Positions 7,977 to 54,241 of a DNA stretch of 56,314 nt are shown piece by piece. The number at the start of each line of letters is the position of its first letter. Position 1 is the stretch's first letter. The DNA comes from Bacteroidota bacterium (GTDB lineage: Bacteria; Bacteroidota; Bacteroidia; Chitinophagales; Saprospiraceae): the NCBI GenBank assembly GCA_029781095.1, contig JAKOXM010000311.1, forward strand, positions 1 through 56,314, given 5' to 3'. Position numbers and translations under genes: made by a program. Below the pieces are notes generated by a model. The model searched no databases. It saw only the letters and a program-made list of their open reading frames with translations, and had not been told where the DNA came from.

Positions 7977-8062
7977 CCGTACCTTTGCGTATATTTCCCG
8001 CAGATTGCGCAGATCACGCAGAAAATATGCCTGAGACAATAAATCCAGTATCCTGAAAACCT

Positions 8063-8246
8063 GCAATAATCAACCTCGGGCGGCAATCGGCGAAATCCGC
8101 GAAATCTGCGGGAGATACACAAACCCGAAAGCCAGCAATAATCAACCTCGGACCGCAATCGGCGAAATCCGCGAAATCTGCGGGAAATATACAAACCCGA
8201 AAACCCGCAATAATCAACCTCGGACCGCAATCGGCGAAATCCGCGC
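8063..8246. repeat. 72-bp tandem repeat, ~2.5 copies, between clpP and clpX
   Basis: GCAATAATCAACCTCGG(G/A)CCGCAATCGGCGAAATCCGCGAAATCTGCGGG starts at 8063, 8135 and 8207. Confidence 0.9.
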
Positions 8247-40005: not shown

Positions 40006-40139
40006 CATTGCTGCGATTGACCGGATTGTATCCATTGGCGTAATAGAAGCCCATTCAGGCAACCCTTTTTCACCCGAAGGCGTCAACATGCAGTTTCGAT
40101 AATCAACCAACGAACAAATCCATACCTGCTTTTTTGAAA

Positions 40140-43100
40140 ATGACGAAGAAGAACACCCTTCTTGCGCTAACCGGCCTGTTTTCACTCGCTTCGCTGTATG
40201 CTTTTACCAATTCCGGAAGCGTGCGCGATAACGTTTTGACGATATTTTTTCCCGATAAAAAGCCGGCGATAGCCATCGAACATCCGCAAGCTGCCGGCAA
40301 TGAAATCCCGGCATTGCCAGTTGCCGCGCCTGCCTCCCTGCTCGCTCCGCCGGATACGACTCCGCCGTTGAAAGATCGTTACGAAGATTTTATCAATGGC
40401 AAATCCAATCAGATCGACCTGCAGGACCCGAAGGTGATCGACAAGGAGGTGGAATACGACCCCACAACAAATATGTATATCATCACCGAAAAGATCGGCG
40501 ATGAATTTTACCGTGCTCCCACGTACATGACTTTCGAGGAGTATGTGGCCTGGCGCGACCGCAAACAACAGCAGGAATACTTCGACCGTCTGCAGGGAGT
40601 TACCTTGTCGGGCGACAGGAATGCCAGCGGCATAGAGGACCCCATTGCCAAATTCAACGTAAAAACGTCCCTCATCGACCGCCTTTTTGGCGGCACCACC
40701 GTGGATATCCGGCCACAGGGCAATATCAACCTCACATTCGGTTTCCGGTACCAGAAAATACAAAACCCGATCCTGACACTTCGCCAGCAGCGCACCGGCA
40801 ACTTTGATTTCGATATGGATATCAATATGAGCGCGGCGGGCAAAATCGGTGAAAAACTCAACCTCAATTTCAACTACAATACCCAGGCGACTTTCGACTT
40901 CGATAACCAGATGAAGTTGCACTATGACACGAAAGGTTTTTCGGAGGACGAGATCATCCAGAACATCGAGGCGGGCAACGTGTCCATGCCTTTGCGCTCC
41001 AACCTGATCAAAGGCGCCCAAAACCTTTTCGGCGTCAAAACGGAAATGAAATTCGGCCACCTGCGCACTACTTTTCTGGCAGCGCAACAGCGTTCGAAGC
41101 AGCAGAGCCTTACCGTACAGGGCGGCTCCCAGGTGCAAACCTTCGAACGGCCGATCGACGAATACGACGAAAACCGCCACTTTTTCCTGAGCCAGTGGAA
41201 CCGGAACGAATTCGAACCCTCGCTGAAATGCCTGCCGGTGCCGCTGTCGCAATTTACCGTCACCCGGATGGAAGTCTGGATCACCAACGACCGTCTTGCA
41301 ACGGAAAACGTACGCGACGTAGTGGCCATGATGGACCTCGGCGAACCGAAACCTTACCTGAACGGTCCGACCGTGGATGACCCCAACCAGCCCGACTATA
41401 CGCTTCCTTTTCCGCCCGCAGTGGACAACAAGGGTAACGGACTGCCCGACAATATCAACAACAAGCTGTATCCGGATATCCTTTCCGAACTGACTGCCGA
41501 TTCGGCATTCCGTTTTTCCGACCGCGTGGTAAGCAAACTCACCAACCAGTACGGGCTAAAGCAAATCCGCGACTTCGAAAAGGTGCGGGCGCGTCTGTTG
41601 TCGTCTTCTGAATACACCTACAACGAGCAACTCGGCTTTATCAGCATCAACCTCAACGTCCAGCCCGACCAGGTGGTGGGTGTGGCGGTGGAATACACGT
41701 ACAACGGCTTGCCGCACAAGATCGGCGAGTTCACCAGCGACGTGCCCAACGGCGACTCTTTGAACCAGAACGTGCTGTTTCTCAAGATGTTGAAGAGCAC
41801 GACGGCCAATATCAGGTACCCTATTTGGGACCTGATGATGAAAAACATCTATGCCGTCGGTTCCGCCAACGTGGATCCGACGGAATTTCGCTTCGACGTG
41901 TTTTACGAAGACCCGGGCAAGGGCCAGAAACGTTTTCTCAACGGCGCCGACATTCCGGACGTCCTTCGGGCCAAACCGCTGCTCCAGGTGTTCAACCTCG
42001 ACAACCTCAACCTGCAGGGCGACCCCGGGGCTGATGGTATTTTCGACTTTGTGCCGGGGCTTACCATCAACCTGCGGACGGGACGCATCATGTTCCCCGT
42101 GCTGGAGCCATTCGGCTCTTTCCTCGACAAGAAAATGGAGGATGCGGGGATGGATAGTGTCAGTCGATCGAAATATATATATCCGCAATTATACGACTCC
42201 ACCCTGTTCCGAGCGCGGGAGTTCCAGCAACTCAACCGCTTCACCCTCAAGGGTTCCTATAAATCGAGTACCTCCTCCGAAATTTCGCTCGGCACCTTCA
42301 ACCTGCCCCAGGGCTCCGTGCGCGTAAGTGCGGGCGGGCGACAGTTGATAGAAGGGCAGGATTACCAGGTGGATTACAACATCGGCAAGGTGAAGATACT
42401 CAACGACGCTATCCTGCAATCGGGGCAGAATGTAAACGTGAGTTTCGAGGACAATACTCTTTTTGGATTTCAGAGCCGAACCATGCTCGGCGCGCGATTC
42501 GATTATGAAGTGAGCAAGGACATGAACATCGGCGCGACGTTTATGAACCTGTTTGAACGACCGCTGACGCAAAAGATCAACTTCGGCGACGACCCGATCA
42601 ACAACAAGGTGTACGGCCTGGATTTCAATATTTCCAAAGACGCTCCATGGCTTACCAAACTGGTCGACAAACTGCCGCTTATTTCCACGAAAGAGCCTTC
42701 CAGCATTACTGCGCAGGCTGAAATTGCCGCGCTGCGCCCCGGCCACAACCGCGCCATCAACCAGGGTACGGATTCCGGCGGCACGGCTTATATCGACGAT
42801 TTCGAAGGCAGCACCGCCAACCTGCCCCTGGCCAATCCGTCCAACTCGTGGGTCATTGCTTCCACGCCCCAGGGCGATCACGGCAACGAAGTCCTGTTCC
42901 CGGAATCCAGCCCCTCGCTGGACAGCGCCAACCTGCTCGCCCGCAACGCCAACCGCGCGGGCATGAGCTGGTATATCGCCGACCCCAGCGCCCGCGACGG
43001 GATTGACGCAGCCAACCCTTATACACGCCTGATCCAGTTTCAGGATATTTTCCCCAACCGCCAGCTGACGCCGCTCGAACAGTCCAACCTGCGTTCGTTC

Positions 43101-46100
43101 GACGTAACGATTTTCCCCCGCGAACGCGGCCCTTACAACTTTGAATTGCCCGGCGGTTATGGAGGCGGTCTGCTGACAAAAGGTCTTACCACCGACGGCA
43201 AGCTGAACCTGCCGGAAACACGCTGGGCGGGTATCATGCGCGGGCTCAATACCAACGACTTTGAAGCCGCCAATATCGAGTTTGTGGAATTCTGGGTGCT
43301 TAACCCGTATATGGACAAAGCGGACGATCCCGGTAATGTGTCCAAAGCGGGTACGATGTACATCGATCTAGGCACACTTTCGGAGGATATCATGCGCGAT
43401 TCCCGGCAGTTTTTTGAAAATGCCATACCAACGGGACAAGGTACCGGTACGACCGCATCTACGCCATGGGGTCGCGTCCCGGTATTGCCGCCCGTCGTGA
43501 ATGCATTCGACAACGACCCCGCCAAGCGGGTGTTGCAGGATGTGGGTCTCGACGGCCTCGACGATGCGGGTGAAACGCAGTTTTTCAAGGACTGGGTAAA
43601 CAGTATTCAAAACTCTACCCTCTCCAACAATGCCAAACAAGAGCTGCTTGCCGACCCCTCGAACGACAACTTCGTCTACTTCCGCGATCCGTCGTACGAT
43701 GCCACCCAGCCCGGTCTGCTGAAGCGCTACCGGCGCTTCAACAACCAGCAGGGCAACTCGCCGGTGAACAACACCTCCAACCTCAACCCTTCCGCAACGA
43801 ACCTGCCCGACGCCGAAGACCTCAACCGCGACAACTCGCTGAACGAAAGCGAGGCCTACTTCCGTTATCCGATCAACATGCCCAAAACCGTCGAAGACGG
43901 CCAGGAAGTGCTCGATCTCGAAAGTCCGCTCATCAAGGACCTTGTGACCGACACGGTCGTTTTCCGCAAAGACGGGGTTGGTCCGAAATACATTTGGTAT
44001 CGCTTCAAGGTTCCCCTCGATCTCAAAGACCGCGTAATCGTAAACGGAATCCAGGATTTCCGCTCGATACGATTTATGCGCATGTTCTGGAAAGGTTTCA
44101 CCGAACAGACGACCTTCCGCTTTGCCACCCTCGAACTGGGCCGCAACCAGTGGCGTCGTTTTACGCAGAACACCCTGTCCTGCAAGGCCTATGATTCTCC
44201 CTGGAATGCCGTCGCTTTCGATGTGAACGCAGTAAGTATCGAAGAAAATGCCGCGCGCACGCCGTTCAATTACACCATACCCTACGGCATTTCACGCGAA
44301 CAGTCCGTTGGCGCATTCCCCGATGTACTGCAAAATGAGCAGTCGCTTTCCATGAGTATCTGCGATTTGCAATACTGCGATGCCCGCGCCATTTTCAAAA
44401 GCCTGAATATGGACCTGAGGCAATTCAAACGCCTGAAAATGTTCGTGCATGCCGAAGGCAAAGACTACGACGGCAGCGGTTTGCTTGATTCTACCGATTT
44501 AACGGTGTTCATACGCCTCGGCTCCGATTATGTGCGCAACTATTACGAATACGAGCTGCCGCTCATGCCTTCCAAAGTTGACAACCTCAACGGGAATCCC
44601 GACAGCCGTACCTACAAGGAAGAGGTATGGAGACCGGAAAACAATTTCGATTTCCCGCTTGAATTGCTGACGGATGTAAAAAAACAACGAAACGCACAGG
44701 CGAACTGGCCGCTCGACATGCCGTTCGAAATAACGGACCCCAACAACCCCCGCGCGAGGGTAAAAGTGGTGGGCAACCCCAATCTGGGGTATGTAAAAGG
44801 CGCCATGGTCGGGGTGCGAAACGTGGATGACTCCAATAACCAATCGAACAAACACTGCGCGGAGGTGTGGATCAACGAATTGAGACTCAACGGCTTCAAC
44901 GAGCAGGCAGGCTACGCCGGACAGGCGCGTGTCGATCTGAAACTAGCCGATTTAGGCAACGTCTCGGTGGCCGGCACGTACAGTAGTATCGGCTGGGGCG
45001 GCATCGAACAGAAACTCATTCAGCGCCAGCGTGAAGAGGTGATTCAATACGACCTGTCTACAAACCTCGAACTCGGCAAGTTGTTGCCGGAAAAAACGGG
45101 TATCAAAGTGCCTTTCTACGCGCAATATTCCAATACGACGCGCAATCCCGAATACGACCCCTACGATCTCGACATCAAATTGAAAGACAAGATCCGCGAG
45201 GAAACCGACCCGGTGAAACGCGACGAGATCAAGAAAATGGCGCAGGATGTATCGATCGTACGCGGCTTCAACTTTACCAATGTGCGGAAGGAGCGCAAGG
45301 GCAATAGCAAACCCTGGCCCTGGAGTATCGAGAATTTCAGCCTGACCTATGCGTTCAACCAGTTAAAAAAACGCAACCCGTTCATTATCAATGATCAGCA
45401 AAACCAGTATAAAGGTGCGCTCGACTATCAATACGCAACCGGCCTGAAGCCCATCGAGCCGTTCAAAAACCTGATCAAAAATGACAAGTACCTCAAATTC
45501 ATCAAGGAATTCAATTTCAACCCCATTCCCAATACCTACGGGTTCAATACCAACATGGAGCGCCTCGTAGGCGTTACCACCTGGCGTTTTGTGGATTCCG
45601 ACGACCCTTCGCGCGATACCTACTACAACCGCCGCTTCACATGGGATCGAAATTATGACCTGGGCTGGGATATTTCACGGTCGCTGCGCTTCAACTACGA
45701 TGCCACGGCGCGCAGCATCATTGACGAACCCTATCAATACAAACCCGATGGCACGGCTTATTCCAAACAGGAACGCCGCGACTCCATCTGGTCGAATATC
45801 AAAAACCTCGGTCGCCCGAAGAACTATATGCACAACGCCAGCCTCAACTGGACGGTGCCGCTCAAATTGATCCCGTATATGGATTGGATAACTGTAAAAG
45901 CCACATATACAGCGGGTTATAACTGGACGGCGCAATCGCTCAAGTTGCAATACCTCGATGCCGGCGCTTTTGCAGATAACGTAAATGCCCGAAGCCTTGG
46001 CAACGTCATCCAGAACAACAACGTGCGGCAGATCAACGGCGACCTGGATTTCACCAAACTGTACGACAAGAGCAAATACCTGTCGAAAATCAACAAACCG

Positions 46101-47840
46101 GCCAAACCGGGCGGCAAGGGTAAGAACCGCAAGAAAGACGATAACAGCGGAGACAACGGTGATAACACCGCGCCGGGCGACGACAAAAACCCGCCAGGCG
46201 GCGGCCCCGGCGGAAGAGATGGAAAAAATGCCGACAGACCCGGCAAAGATCAGCCGGCCGGCCGTAATGCTGCCGGAGGTAACGACAAAGCCGGAAATGC
46301 AGCCGGCGGCGCCGATGACAAGACCGGTAAAGACAAAGCCGGCAAGGATAAAAAGGACAAACAAAAGAATAAGGACCGTGAGCCCTCGCTCGCAGAAAGG
46401 ATCGCTTTGCGTCCGCTCATGCTCATCCGCAGGGCACGGGTCACCTACAGCGAGAATTACAGTACCGTGGTGCCCGGTTTCACCCCCGAGCCTAAACTCA
46501 TGGGCCTGAGCGAAGGATTTACAGCGCCGGGCTGGGCATTCGTGGCAGGCGTACAGCCCGCCAGCAGCTGGCTCGACGAAGCCGCCGCCAAAGGCTGGAT
46601 CACCTATCGCCAGGAACTGAACCAGCAGGTGATGCGCAACTACACCCAAAATTTCGATGCCGGTATTACGATCGAACCTTTCCGCGACTTCCGTGTGGAG
46701 GTGACGGCCAACCGCCAGTATACGCGCAACAGCACCGAACTGTTCAAAGACCAGAATCCTTTGCTCGACCCGGCCGAAACACAGTTTGAGCACCGCGCCC
46801 AGCGCGATATCGGTAGCTTCAGCGTGTCTTATTTGTCGATTAAAACATTATTCAACAGCGATATCAACGGCATTTTTGCCCGATACCAGAGCTACCGTCC
46901 TATTATCTCGGATCGCCTCGGCATCGATATCGGCGATACCAGTCCGCACGACAAGGACCCGGGCTACACCAAGGGATTCGGTCGTATCCAGCAACAGGTG
47001 CTGATCCCGGCCTTCGTCGCCGCCTACACCCAGTCGGACCCCAACAACGTAAACCTTGACCTCTTCAAAACGAGGCCGGCGCCCAACTGGAAACTCAACT
47101 ACAACGGTCTTTCCAAGGTCGGCAACCTGGGTAAAGTATTCTCCAGCATACAAATATCGCACGGGTACAAAAGCACACTGACCGTGAATTCGTACAACAC
47201 CGATATTTTTTATGATCAACAGAATCCGACGGTTATCGATCAGTTGAACGCTAACTATATTGCCCGTTTCGAAATACCGCAAGTGGTGATCAACGAGCAA
47301 CTCGCGCCGCTGTTCGGCATGGATGTGAAGTTGAAAAACGATATGACCTTCAAGTTCGATTTCAAGAAAAGCCGCACGCTGGCCATGTCGTTCATCGACT
47401 ACCAACTCGCAGAAACCCGTTCTTCGGGCTACTCCGCCGGTTTCGGTTACCGCTTGAAAAACGTCAATATCGGCTTCCTGACGGGCAAAAAGTCCAAAAA
47501 GTCGAAAAGCAGGTCGAAGAAAAACCCCGCGCCAGGCGCCAAACCGCCCACCCCGGGCAGCAGCGGCACCGGTCAGCAGGCCAACGACATGAATTTCAAA
47601 TTTGACTTTGAAGTCCGCGACGACATTACCGTTAACCACCGCCTCGATCAACTGGAAGAAGCCGTGCCCACGCGCGGTGCGCGCACGATCAGCATCAACC
47701 CGTCGGTAGAATACGCATTGAACAAACGCCTGTCGCTGCGCCTGTTCACCGACTACCGGAAAACGGTGCCCAAAACTTCGCAGTCGTTCCCGATCACAAC
47801 GATCAACGCAGGGATCACGGTGCAGTTTAAGTTGAATTAA
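40140..47840 (+). CDS. sprA: T9SS outer membrane translocon / gliding motility protein SprA (Sov)
   Basis: ~2566 aa; very large OM protein with SprA-type N-terminus (PTYMTFEEYVAWRDRKQQQEYFD), TAYIDDFEGS, and C-terminal TINAGITVQFKLN; ATG at 40140 preferred over TTG at 40134. Confidence 0.92.
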   Translation: MTKKNTLLALTGLFSLASLYAFTNSGSVRDNVLTIFFPDKKPAIAIEHPQAAGNEIPALPVAAPASLLAPPDTTPPLKDRYEDFINGKSNQIDLQDPKVIDKEVEYDPTTNMYIITEKIGDEFYRAPTYMTFEEYVAWRDRKQQQEYFDRLQGVTLSGDRNASGIEDPIAKFNVKTSLIDRLFGGTTVDIRPQGNINLTFGFRYQKIQNPILTLRQQRTGNFDFDMDINMSAAGKIGEKLNLNFNYNTQATFDFDNQMKLHYDTKGFSEDEIIQNIEAGNVSMPLRSNLIKGAQNLFGVKTEMKFGHLRTTFLAAQQRSKQQSLTVQGGSQVQTFERPIDEYDENRHFFLSQWNRNEFEPSLKCLPVPLSQFTVTRMEVWITNDRLATENVRDVVAMMDLGEPKPYLNGPTVDDPNQPDYTLPFPPAVDNKGNGLPDNINNKLYPDILSELTADSAFRFSDRVVSKLTNQYGLKQIRDFEKVRARLLSSSEYTYNEQLGFISINLNVQPDQVVGVAVEYTYNGLPHKIGEFTSDVPNGDSLNQNVLFLKMLKSTTANIRYPIWDLMMKNIYAVGSANVDPTEFRFDVFYEDPGKGQKRFLNGADIPDVLRAKPLLQVFNLDNLNLQGDPGADGIFDFVPGLTINLRTGRIMFPVLEPFGSFLDKKMEDAGMDSVSRSKYIYPQLYDSTLFRAREFQQLNRFTLKGSYKSSTSSEISLGTFNLPQGSVRVSAGGRQLIEGQDYQVDYNIGKVKILNDAILQSGQNVNVSFEDNTLFGFQSRTMLGARFDYEVSKDMNIGATFMNLFERPLTQKINFGDDPINNKVYGLDFNISKDAPWLTKLVDKLPLISTKEPSSITAQAEIAALRPGHNRAINQGTDSGGTAYIDDFEGSTANLPLANPSNSWVIASTPQGDHGNEVLFPESSPSLDSANLLARNANRAGMSWYIADPSARDGIDAANPYTRLIQFQDIFPNRQLTPLEQSNLRSFDVTIFPRERGPYNFELPGGYGGGLLTKGLTTDGKLNLPETRWAGIMRGLNTNDFEAANIEFVEFWVLNPYMDKADDPGNVSKAGTMYIDLGTLSEDIMRDSRQFFENAIPTGQGTGTTASTPWGRVPVLPPVVNAFDNDPAKRVLQDVGLDGLDDAGETQFFKDWVNSIQNSTLSNNAKQELLADPSNDNFVYFRDPSYDATQPGLLKRYRRFNNQQGNSPVNNTSNLNPSATNLPDAEDLNRDNSLNESEAYFRYPINMPKTVEDGQEVLDLESPLIKDLVTDTVVFRKDGVGPKYIWYRFKVPLDLKDRVIVNGIQDFRSIRFMRMFWKGFTEQTTFRFATLELGRNQWRRFTQNTLSCKAYDSPWNAVAFDVNAVSIEENAARTPFNYTIPYGISREQSVGAFPDVLQNEQSLSMSICDLQYCDARAIFKSLNMDLRQFKRLKMFVHAEGKDYDGSGLLDSTDLTVFIRLGSDYVRNYYEYELPLMPSKVDNLNGNPDSRTYKEEVWRPENNFDFPLELLTDVKKQRNAQANWPLDMPFEITDPNNPRARVKVVGNPNLGYVKGAMVGVRNVDDSNNQSNKHCAEVWINELRLNGFNEQAGYAGQARVDLKLADLGNVSVAGTYSSIGWGGIEQKLIQRQREEVIQYDLSTNLELGKLLPEKTGIKVPFYAQYSNTTRNPEYDPYDLDIKLKDKIREETDPVKRDEIKKMAQDVSIVRGFNFTNVRKERKGNSKPWPWSIENFSLTYAFNQLKKRNPFIINDQQNQYKGALDYQYATGLKPIEPFKNLIKNDKYLKFIKEFNFNPIPNTYGFNTNMERLVGVTTWRFVDSDDPSRDTYYNRRFTWDRNYDLGWDISRSLRFNYDATARSIIDEPYQYKPDGTAYSKQERRDSIWSNIKNLGRPKNYMHNASLNWTVPLKLIPYMDWITVKATYTAGYNWTAQSLKLQYLDAGAFADNVNARSLGNVIQNNNVRQINGDLDFTKLYDKSKYLSKINKPAKPGGKGKNRKKDDNSGDNGDNTAPGDDKNPPGGGPGGRDGKNADRPGKDQPAGRNAAGGNDKAGNAAGGADDKTGKDKAGKDKKDKQKNKDREPSLAERIALRPLMLIRRARVTYSENYSTVVPGFTPEPKLMGLSEGFTAPGWAFVAGVQPASSWLDEAAAKGWITYRQELNQQVMRNYTQNFDAGITIEPFRDFRVEVTANRQYTRNSTELFKDQNPLLDPAETQFEHRAQRDIGSFSVSYLSIKTLFNSDINGIFARYQSYRPIISDRLGIDIGDTSPHDKDPGYTKGFGRIQQQVLIPAFVAAYTQSDPNNVNLDLFKTRPAPNWKLNYNGLSKVGNLGKVFSSIQISHGYKSTLTVNSYNTDIFYDQQNPTVIDQLNANYIARFEIPQVVINEQLAPLFGMDVKLKNDMTFKFDFKKSRTLAMSFIDYQLAETRSSGYSAGFGYRLKNVNIGFLTGKKSKKSKSRSKKNPAPGAKPPTPGSSGTGQQANDMNFKFDFEVRDDITVNHRLDQLEEAVPTRGARTISINPSVEYALNKRLSLRLFTDYRKTVPKTSQSFPITTINAGITVQFKLN

Positions 47841-51145: not shown

Positions 51146-51161
51146 TACGACAGTTGTCGTA
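51146..51161. promoter_or_regulatory. Candidate BlaI/MecI-type operator 1 (TACGACAGTTGTCGTA)
   Basis: Near-perfect 16-bp palindrome upstream of blaI. Confidence 0.8.
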
Positions 51162-51176
51162 AAAAATAGTTGCAAT

Positions 51177-51192
51177 TACGACAATTGTCGTA
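51177..51192. promoter_or_regulatory. Candidate BlaI/MecI-type operator 2 (TACGACAATTGTCGTA)
   Basis: Perfect 16-bp palindrome, 31 bp centre-to-centre from operator 1. Confidence 0.82.
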
Positions 51193-51238
51193 CACCTTTG
51201 CCGTTGTAATGAATATTCAGCAATTACAAACTTCTGAT

Positions 51239-51622
51239 ATGTCGCAGAAATCCGTTTACCAGCCAACCGAAGCCGAACTCGAGATTCTTAAAATTATTTG
51301 GGAGCTCGAACCCGCCTCCGTACGCGCCATCCACGAACGCATTGCGGAAGGGAAAAACGTCGGTTACACCACTGTGCTCAAACAAGTACAGCGACTGATT
51401 GAAAAAGGCGTACTGGATAAGGAGGTGGTGGGCGGGACGCATCTGTACCGGGCCGTCGTGCACGAAACCGATATCAAGCAGCAATTGGTGGACAAGGTGT
51501 TACACAACGCTTTCGGCGGCTCGGCACTCGACATGATGATGCACGCACTCGGCAACCACAAGGCTTCCCCGGAAGAACTGCTGGAACTCAAAAACTGGCT
51601 GGATGCCCAATTGAAAAAGTAA
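51239..51622 (+). CDS. blaI: BlaI/MecI/CopY-family transcriptional repressor
   Basis: PTEAELEILKIIWELEPASVRAIHERIAEGKNVGYTTVLKQVQRLIEKGVLDKEVVGGTHLYRAVV; start MSQKSVYQP (alternative ATG 51209). Confidence 0.93.
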   Translation: MSQKSVYQPTEAELEILKIIWELEPASVRAIHERIAEGKNVGYTTVLKQVQRLIEKGVLDKEVVGGTHLYRAVVHETDIKQQLVDKVLHNAFGGSALDMMMHALGNHKASPEELLELKNWLDAQLKK

Positions 51623-51659: not shown

Positions 51660-53483
51660 ATGAACCACCTGCTTCCAGTTACACAGGCTCTCGGATGGAC
51701 AATCGTTCATTCAATCTGGCAAATTGCTGCAATCTGGGTCGTTTTCAGACTGTTGTCGTGGCGCCTGCAACGACAAAACAACGCGGTATACCTGCTGGCT
51801 CTCGGCGCGATGCTTGTTGCCGTCTTTTGGTCTGCCGCAACCTTCTATGCAGCATATGAAAGGTTTTCGCTCGTTGAAACGGCTTCTTCAGTATCATTCT
51901 CCCCTCCGGAGACGGTAATACTGACAGGCTCGCAGGATTTCGCAACACCGGAATACATTTCGCAAAGTTTCCCCGCGATTGCCGCCGGATGGTTTGATAG
52001 CCATGCTGCGGAAATTGGCTGGGCCTGGGGTATCTGTGCCATCCTGCTTTACCTGCGTCTTCTCGGCGGTTACTGGCTGGCGCACCGGTTGAGGCACAAG
52101 GGCGTGACGGTAGCAGCCGATTCTTTCATATCGCTTTGTCAACATTGGTCCAGGCAATTGAATATCAGGCAATATGTTAACCTGATGGAATCATCTCGGG
52201 TGACAGAACCCCTCACAATCGGTTTCTGGAAACCTGTCGTCCTCTTTCCGGCAGGGTTACTCACTCAACTTACACCTGAGCAGGCAGAGGTACTGTTGCT
52301 GCACGAACTGGCGCACATCCGTCGCCACGACTACCTCGTCAACCTTTTTCAGTTGCTGCTGGAGGTCTGTTTTTTTTACCATCCATTGTTTTGGCTCCTT
52401 TCGCGGGAAGCGCGCGTCCGGCGGGAGTATTGCTGCGACGATATCGTGGTAAGGCATACATCCGACGCTTTGTTGTACGCCCAAACCCTTACAAACCTAC
52501 AGATTTCTATTGTTCAACTTCAAAATCAATTCACCATGCAAGCCACCGGAAAAAGTAATTTCACCGAAAGAATACTGCGTATAGCAGGAATTACCCCAAA
52601 AAACTCGCTTCGATCCAACTGGTTCCCCGTTTTATTGCTTCCATTGCTGATCGGCTTTACCACGTGGTGGCCGCTAAATGCCCAAAACGGATCAGCCAGT
52701 ACAAATGCGAAAATTAATTCCGAAATCGTATCGGGTGAGTCATCCGGCAAAGGCATTAAAAGAGATACAGTCCCTCCGCACCGCACTACGTCGCCTCAGA
52801 ACAACCACACAGCACCAGTGCCTCCGGGCCCCGGCGGTTCGTCTGAAACTGCGTCCCCGGTCGGCGCCGGGAAGGTGAAAAACGAACCGCAGAATGTCGC
52901 CATCCAGGCCGTCAAGATGAACGTCTTCTACATCGGCGTGGACAATCCACTTCGCGTAGCCGCTTCCGGCGTGCCCGATAACGAACTGTCTGTACAACTC
53001 ATCGGCTCAGGTGAAATAATGGGAAGCGATGGCTCTTACGTCGTTCAGGTCAAGCAACCGGGAGAAGTAACAATAAAAGTCTTTCGCTGGCAAAACGGGC
53101 AGGAAACCTTGCTCAGCGAGCAAAAATATCGGGTAAAACGGATTCCTGACCCCACCCCAATGGTGTCAGGCAATAAGAGCCAAAGCGTCAGCCTGAAGAC
53201 CCTGCTCGATGCCAGGGGCGTGGAAGCCATGCTGGAGAATTTTGACTTCGATGCTTACTGCGAGGTGATGGGCTATGAGCTGACGATCGTGCCCTTAAAA
53301 GGAGACGCTACTACTTTTAACGTCACCGGCAGCGAGTTTCCGGCAAATGCCCGGGAATTGTTCAAAAAACTCGAAGCAACTGGCGGTGCTGTCTTTATGG
53401 ACGAAATAAAGGTAAAATGCCCCGGCGACGCGGCAGCGCGCCACGTAGGCGGCCTCGCATTCAAGATCAAAAACAGTGAGTAG
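51660..53483 (+). CDS. BlaR1-like M56 metallopeptidase with C-terminal GldM/PorM-like domain
   Basis: TM segments, HELAHIRRHDYLVNLFQLLLEVCFFYHPLFWLLSREARVRREYCCDD (M56); C-terminus KMNVFYIGVDNPLRVAASGVPDNELSVQLIGSGEI...YRVKRIPDPTPMVSG...AMLENFDFDAYCEVMGYELTI resembles the GldM C-terminal region. Confidence 0.88.
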   Translation: MNHLLPVTQALGWTIVHSIWQIAAIWVVFRLLSWRLQRQNNAVYLLALGAMLVAVFWSAATFYAAYERFSLVETASSVSFSPPETVILTGSQDFATPEYISQSFPAIAAGWFDSHAAEIGWAWGICAILLYLRLLGGYWLAHRLRHKGVTVAADSFISLCQHWSRQLNIRQYVNLMESSRVTEPLTIGFWKPVVLFPAGLLTQLTPEQAEVLLLHELAHIRRHDYLVNLFQLLLEVCFFYHPLFWLLSREARVRREYCCDDIVVRHTSDALLYAQTLTNLQISIVQLQNQFTMQATGKSNFTERILRIAGITPKNSLRSNWFPVLLLPLLIGFTTWWPLNAQNGSASTNAKINSEIVSGESSGKGIKRDTVPPHRTTSPQNNHTAPVPPGPGGSSETASPVGAGKVKNEPQNVAIQAVKMNVFYIGVDNPLRVAASGVPDNELSVQLIGSGEIMGSDGSYVVQVKQPGEVTIKVFRWQNGQETLLSEQKYRVKRIPDPTPMVSGNKSQSVSLKTLLDARGVEAMLENFDFDAYCEVMGYELTIVPLKGDATTFNVTGSEFPANARELFKKLEATGGAVFMDEIKVKCPGDAAARHVGGLAFKIKNSE

Positions 53484-53491
53484 GCTGCGTG

Positions 53492-54241
53492 CTACTTCTC
53501 CCCGGAGATCGTGCCCAGATCGTATGACAACATGAGGCTCAGGCTAAACCGGGAAAATTTCAGGTTGCCGGCGTCCGGAAACACCGAATTGATATTCATG
53601 GAAACAAAAAAAGGTTGCATGGCCACGCTTCCGGAAAGCCCCAGTTCGGGCAGAAAAAAAGGCGACTCTTTTTCAATCTTCTGGATAGCAAACAAATCGA
53701 TACCATTGATATCATATGACGATTCGCCGGCGGGGTATTCAAGCCGGGAAAGGCGCAGGGCCATGCCGCCCCGGTAGTTTTTCCCGATGAATGCAATTGT
53801 AGGCTGAAGGAACCAGCGCCTGATTGTAAATCGTGAAAACTTCTCATTGCCATAGTTGTTGATCAGCCGCCCCTGACCGACACCGGCGAAAAGGCTTATC
53901 GAACCCCCATCAAAAATTTGATAGGTCCCCAGGCTGGCATCGGAGAAATTAAATTTTGTCCCGAGTTCGTCTCTTTTAATCGAATTCGAACCGGAGGCAT
54001 AAAAACTAACCATCAGGGCGGCGTGCCTGACGGGACTGTATACGCCCATTGCTTCAAAAGCCTTGTTCTTTGGCCCCCAGCTGTACCCTGCCCCGATTTG
54101 CCCGTCTTTTTTATTTTGAAGGACGGGAATATATACCGTATTGGGAGCATAGTAATAATAACTATCGGAAGACTGGCCGAAGGCCGGAGCGCAGAGAAAC
54201 AATGCGCCGGCGATGAGCAACGACGACGGACTGAGTTGCAT
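53492..54241 (-). CDS. Predicted outer membrane beta-barrel protein, unknown function
   Basis: 249 aa; signal peptide MQLSPSSLLIAGALFLCAPAFGQ; alternating amphipathic strands. Confidence 0.6.
   Translation of the reverse strand: MQLSPSSLLIAGALFLCAPAFGQSSDSYYYYAPNTVYIPVLQNKKDGQIGAGYSWGPKNKAFEAMGVYSPVRHAALMVSFYASGSNSIKRDELGTKFNFSDASLGTYQIFDGGSISLFAGVGQGRLINNYGNEKFSRFTIRRWFLQPTIAFIGKNYRGGMALRLSRLEYPAGESSYDINGIDLFAIQKIEKESPFFLPELGLSGSVAMQPFFVSMNINSVFPDAGNLKFSRFSLSLMLSYDLGTISGEK

Follow-up and report, generated by a model that had tools for sequence, protein, structure and literature searches.

The closest described systems to the locus analysed here are the BlaR1/MecR1 sensors with their BlaI/MecI repressors, and GldM/PorM, the shaft of the type IX secretion system (T9SS) and gliding motor. 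We take BlaR1 and MecR1 to be peptidases of MEROPS family M56, with S. aureus BlaR1 represented by PDB 8exp/8exs, and GldM/PorM to be covered by the Pfam families PF12081, PF21601, PF21602 and PF12080 and the PDB entries 6ey4, 6ey5 and 7cmg. To our knowledge, the sensing of type IX secretion or gliding motor state in Bacteroidota is poorly known, and the described route is PorXY-SigP with PorA. In P. gingivalis, PorXY-SigP and PorA regulate T9SS (PMC4800418, PMC7712824). S. aureus BlaR1 has the motifs HEXXH and EXXXD plus Asp210, and S. aureus BlaI is cleaved at Asn101-Phe102 (PMC9834060). PorM-D4 alone is enough to bind PorN of P. gingivalis, and in GldM/PorM the D3 domain serves for dimerisation through domain swapping (PMC5790014). 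Moreover, PorM S460C cross-links to PorN A241C, and S460 lies at the D4-PorN interface (PMC12421860).

We analysed a 56,314-nt stretch of DNA from a Saprospiraceae genome (GCA_029781095.1), referred to as the window, and found an intact open reading frame of 607 aa (51660-53483, plus strand) encoding an M56 metallopeptidase-GldM D3/D4 fusion protein. Residues 15-306 (51702-52577) form an M56/BlaR1-type membrane protease domain, identified by alignment and by Pfam Peptidase_M56 (PF05569, E=2.4e-32, 112.7 bits against a gathering cut-off of 31), which bears out the BlaR1-like N-terminal half of the original prediction. The last transmembrane helix region, a modelled helix at residues 321-354 (52620-52721; AlphaFold secondary structure), contains the hydrophobic stretch FPVLLLPLLIGFTTWWPL, and is followed by a Pro/Ser/Thr-rich disordered linker at residues 343-410 (52686-52889) with pLDDT below 50 in the AlphaFold model. 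This linker of roughly 70 residues is predicted to be flexible and could be long enough to span the periplasm. Beyond it lie a GldM_3rd (D3) domain at residues 413-493 (52896-53138; PF21602, E=2.4e-19, 69.8 bits against a cut-off of 25.2) and a GldM_4th (D4) domain matched at residues 496-596 (PF12080, E=4.5e-14, 53.5 bits against 24.6), which alignments extend through a GldM-type C-terminal tail (residues 496-604, 53145-53471) and in which C534/C587 and CPGD..R are conserved. All these features are on the plus strand. The NCBIfam model GldM_gliding (TIGR03517) matched residues 410-590 with E=4e-27; its 95 bits fall below the full-length cut-off of 180, and the match covers profile positions 322-511 only. 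Pfam gave no match to the D1/D2 families PF12081 or PF21601.

Sequence searches against the PDB matched residues 407-590 to GldM (6ey4, E=1e-14) and residues 173-308 to BlaR1 (8exs, E=8e-6). With an AlphaFold2 model of the full-length protein (mean pLDDT 76.6), the best Foldseek matches in the PDB were GldM/PorM and then BlaR1, and when only residues 398-607 were modelled (mean pLDDT 84.9), GldM/PorM gave the only strong matches (E 4e-12 to 1e-9). The C-terminal region of about 190 aa had been predicted to be GldM/PorM-like, and Pfam, NCBIfam, PDB and AlphaFold/Foldseek comparisons all agreed; the profile scan and the structure comparison proposed as tests of that prediction both returned GldM/PorM. 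No penicillin-binding (class D beta-lactamase-like) sensor was found in the protein by Pfam, NCBIfam, PDB sequence or fold, and the predicted replacement of the penicillin sensor in residues 410-607 therefore holds. The protein is an M56/BlaR1-type zinc protease in which the sensor is replaced by the D3+D4 tip of GldM/PorM. It is not a BlaR1/MecR1 beta-lactam sensor, because the defining sensor domain was absent when tested, nor is it GldM, since it lacks D1, D2 and the motor helix.

The protease half has intact catalytic motifs. The HELAH motif predicted at about 52302-52316 was located at residues 215-219, at exactly those positions, and in an alignment of 15 fusions H215, E216, H219, D224, E256 and D260 were invariant, giving the motifs H215ELAH219 (HEXXH) and E256YCCD260 (EXXXD). 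The spacing from H219 to E256 is 37 residues, the same as in BlaR1 (205 to 242), and D224 is the counterpart of S. aureus BlaR1 Asp210. The adjacent BlaI of the original prediction was confirmed: upstream on the same strand lies a blaI-like winged-helix repressor gene (51239-51622, plus strand, with an alternative in-frame ATG at 51209; Penicillinase_R, PF03965, E=7e-27), whose product aligns along its full length with MecI (1sd6) and BlaI (1sd4). The Asn-Phe scissile bond of S. aureus BlaI is not conserved in it; the aligned residues are His-Ala, so cutting of this repressor, if any, would occur elsewhere or with another specificity. With active site, operon and operator all conserved, it is plausible that the fusion protease inactivates the adjacent BlaI-like protein.

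Every orthologous operon examined has, ahead of blaI, a pair of operators of the form TACGACA-NN-TGTCGTA. In the window, copy 1, TACGACAGTTGTCGTA (51146-51161), is a perfect palindrome except at its centre, and copy 2, TACGACAATTGTCGTA (51177-51192), lies 31 bp downstream; the positions of both are conserved upstream of the repressor gene. The distance between the two copies is 30-31 bp in the window's genus, against 52 bp in the other genus. From established knowledge of Bacteroidota promoters, we read positions 51170-51200 (plus strand) as a probable Bacteroidota-type promoter, with TTG at 51170-51172 and a -7-like element CACCTTTG at 51193-51200, the first base of which deviates from the Bacteroidota -7 consensus TAnnTTTG. 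Orthologues keep a TTTG...TTTG arrangement with [T/C/G]AnnTTTG as the second element, and L011 and L015 have the exact TAnnTTTG. Operator copy 2 occupies the spacer of this probable promoter, which is the position expected of a repressor site.

Exact operator copies were confined to the fusion operon in all nine genomes searched whole, the window's genome included. A wider BlaI regulon found no support, since sites with up to two mismatches were rarer than a reversed-pattern control in every genome tested; G009, for instance, had 2 such sites against 32 in the control, both being the operator copies themselves. The sole evident promoter under this operator thus appears to be that of the fusion operon, with no separate regulon evident. 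With the operator at no other promoter, the protease itself or its tip would probably be the effective output. The same genomes also contain a paralogous blaI-M56 pair that lacks GldM; this pair appears to have another palindrome, TACGAAAATTTTCGTA, likewise in two copies 31 bp apart (for example G032:C316:16737 and 16768). The TACGACA..TGTCGTA operator was also present at two of the nearest M56 loci without GldM (L041 and L042), so this operator type probably predates the GldM tail.

We surveyed the distribution of the fusion and found it at full length in 16 genomes of two Saprospiraceae genera: 13 of the window's genus including this one, one more of the same genus and two of the other genus. 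The 15 other copies are 27-58% identical over the full length, and the carriers include a complete chromosome (G574), putatively Haliscomenobacter hydrossis DSM 1100. Of 396 genomes drawn evenly from the phylum, 94 had a GldM_4th match, nearly always in an ordinary GldM of 505-570 aa, and this genome was the sole one among them in which an M56 fusion was seen. A blaI-like gene lies directly upstream on the same strand of every fusion, with one extra ORF in between at L009. Canonical GldM was found in most fusion genomes; canonical gldM was not seen in draft G020 (96% complete), which also misses canonical gldN, or in draft G034 (79% complete), in which gldN is present, each a possible bin gap. 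Next to the fusion in G726, we observed a short D4-only GldM-like ORF directly 3' of it (L178:4324-4731; custom profile E=4e-15).

We then examined how far the tip resembles GldM. GldM of the same genome (L003, with gldN after it) shares 43% identity with the fusion tail, right to the extreme end (GDVAARNIGGLAFKIR versus GDAAARHVGGLAFKIK). At 31 of the 38 GldM-conserved positions, including the C-terminal CPGD..R...FKI tail, the fusions keep the majority residue. From PDB alignment and construct numbering, we infer that PorM S460 maps to the loop at about residues 544-550 of the fusion; within this loop D549 is invariant in 23 of 23 GldM proteins and kept in 88% of fusions. The F-K-A-Q motif of one loop, in which GldM of the order has K in 23/23 and Q in 22/23, is lost from every fusion of both lineages, so binding by the fusion tip may differ from that of GldM.

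In a D3-D4 tree, the fusions of the window's genus formed one clade (100/100), and the two Haliscomenobacter-type fusions grouped with the GldM of their own genus (100/98). Constraining all fusions to one clade cost 36 log-likelihood units (p-AU 0.023), which disfavours a single shared origin of all GldM tails. We read this as two probable acquisitions of the GldM part, each from the GldM of the host; since the M56 tree is compatible with a single M56 ancestor, there may have been two fusions, or one lineage may have had its tail replaced later. A second M56 subtype (858 aa) with a GldM-D4-like C-terminus was found in G008 (L143:3493-6456), where a blaI-like gene lies upstream, and in G024 (L144:2-1192), where the copy is cut by the contig end. 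Its GldM-D4 homology was detected by a custom profile and BLAST (E=4e-15), with no Pfam match to GldM_4th.

The tip also occurs apart from the protease. Many D3-D4 proteins of about 220-250 aa stand alone in the window's genus, some in tandem, with apparent signal peptides, lipoprotein signals or membrane anchors. Detached GldM-tip genes are divergent to GldN-like genes in G005 and G021 (PF19841, E=4e-13 and 5e-7), and the same pairing was seen by coordinates in G800 and in G014, which has two GldN-like genes on a stretch that may be an inverted assembly duplicate (L138:1744-4988, L141:3338-5116, L172 and L173). This pairing suggests that a detached GldM tip still works with a GldN-type partner, and such pairs may possibly be alternative ring or track components. 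A few detached tips also occur in Flavobacteriia (L146-L148). Tandem stand-alone tips with apparent N-terminal membrane anchors (L133:3711-8469, L134:3047-4602 and L135:3-1342) adjoin a conserved gene of about 530 aa without a Pfam match, in which a short stretch is similar to the central part of the second M56-GldM subtype (BLAST E=6e-8).

Other tails are found on related proteases. M56 proteases ending in a T9SS sorting domain (PF18962/TIGR04183) occur in Saprospiraceae and other Bacteroidota (L043:2674-4947, L044:3337-5367, L045:7890-10484, L051:7953-10607 and L066:7097-9460), with Plug or CarboxypepD_reg modules preceding the tail. Their M56 half is related to that of the fusion, they have no GldM domain, and several have an adjacent blaI-like gene. 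Relatives with such different tails indicate that tail swapping is common in the family. The sorting-domain forms are inner-membrane proteins that end in a T9SS cargo signal.

Like BlaR1/MecR1-BlaI/MecI, the fusion operon combines an M56 gluzincin protease embedded in the membrane (HEXXH and EXXXD), whose extracytoplasmic sensor follows the last helix at the C-terminus, with a neighbouring repressor gene of the BlaI family and palindromic operators at the promoter. It differs in the GldM D3+D4 that replaces the penicillin-binding sensor, in its operator sequence, in having no resistance gene under the operator and in the loss of the S. aureus Asn-Phe site. With GldM/PorM it shares D3 and D4 including the C-terminal tail, but it lacks the GldL-binding transmembrane helix, D1 and D2, is joined to a protease and has lost the F-K-A-Q loop. 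With PorXY-SigP/PorA it would have in common an envelope-level, type IX-linked regulation through an inner-membrane sensor, whereas PorXY-SigP uses a histidine kinase and an ECF sigma factor, without a BlaI protease pair or a GldM-derived domain.

From an architecture and an operator established by sequence, we infer docking, signal and output as follows. The locus would be a two-gene self-repressing sensor operon, with a blaI-like repressor followed by an M56 inner-membrane protease. The tip would reach the GldK/N track or ring through the linker and dock on GldN, or alternatively dimerise with GldM itself. The last helix would then pass on to the cytoplasmic protease whether the type IX/gliding motor is present or moving; the protease would cut BlaI and derepress its own operon, and the output could be the protease cutting another protein or the tip filling GldM docking sites. 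Gliding cannot serve as the signal in general, given that H. hydrossis is reported to be non-motile (PMC3156403). Our leading reading, which we hold at slightly less than even confidence, is that an inner-membrane protease docked to, or competing for, GldK/N reports type IX motor state through repressor cleavage. We propose still more tentatively a form of proteolytic surveillance, in which the M56 protease engages GldK/N as GldM does, docking or motion leads to repressor cleavage, and the tip is a reusable Saprospiraceae 'plug' that also occurs detached with GldN-like partners.

Several other explanations were weighed against motor sensing. The tip might be a mere periplasmic Ig-type scaffold or dimerisation module whose ligand is a peptide, a glycan or another envelope protein, without type IX contact. 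The domain-swapped dimerisation by D3, the loss of F-K-A-Q from all fusions and the varied periplasmic modules of other M56 sensors, for example Plug-like and CarboxypepD_reg, fit this idea, but so many GldM-conserved positions persist, down to the C-terminal tail, that we consider it unlikely, if still worth serious attention. A T9SS-linked ligand is made more likely because the domain is the GldN-contacting tip and its detached copies pair with GldN-like genes, and because it has probably been captured more than once from the GldM of its host, and related M56 sensors end in T9SS sorting domains. A brake on the motor is a less probable explanation: induced tips would fill GldN sites or mix with GldM dimers and so lower motor activity, with the protease and BlaI setting the amount. 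More of the protein is the only evident transcriptional output, since its own promoter alone has the operator, and anchored or secreted tips do occur detached in the same genus; the strictly conserved protease motifs, however, would be superfluous for a pure competitor.

The pairing of an M56 protease with a blaI gene is what one would expect of an ordinary sensor of beta-lactams or cell-wall damage of the BlaR1/MecR1 type. We regard such a function as very improbable here, as residues 410-607 match GldM/PorM only, by sequence and fold, the NCBIfam BlaR1 equivalog model matched the protease half alone, at 95.7 bits where 400 are required, and no beta-lactamase gene was recognised among the neighbours examined; the absent penicillin-binding domain led us to reject beta-lactam sensor identity. 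A chimeric contig, frameshift or other artefact has a negligible probability. The draft genome does comprise 830 contigs with 6.6% contamination, but the same full-length architecture recurs in 15 other genomes including the complete chromosome, and these independent copies rule out an assembly chimera.

In the open-access literature, we found no paper on the M56-GldM combination, which domain databases may list automatically as an architecture, and nothing relevant in which M56 or BlaR1 appears together with GldM or type IX secretion. The fusion, its repressor gene and its private DNA switch suggest a previously undescribed way of monitoring the motor. If the tip docks as it does in GldM, the operon would provide a second, protease-based route for sensing motor state, and its single private operator could be used to drive a motor-state reporter. 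BlaR1-type proteases would then be modular sensors that can exchange their input domain for part of the machine they watch, and the GldM tip appears to circulate as a separate module with GldN-like partners. The putative carrier H. hydrossis DSM 1100 is cultivated, so the idea is open to experiment.

Finally, we inspected the surroundings of the operon. The T9SS outer-membrane translocon gene Sov/SprA lies in the window at 40134-47840 (TIGR04189, 2364 bits), about 3.8 kb upstream of the fusion; membership of a T9SS operon on the basis of this proximity was ruled out, because the neighbourhood is not kept in G009. In that comparison no conserved T9SS neighbour was found at the fusion locus, and only blaI and the fusion were constant. 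The gene at 53492-54241 (minus strand) encodes a probable outer-membrane protein with no Pfam or NCBIfam match; the same gene neighbours the operon in G009, and visual inspection placed it there in several further genomes too. The window also contains two tandem repeats, one of 137 bp x 2 at 3-279 and one of 72 bp x 2.7 at 8055-8245.
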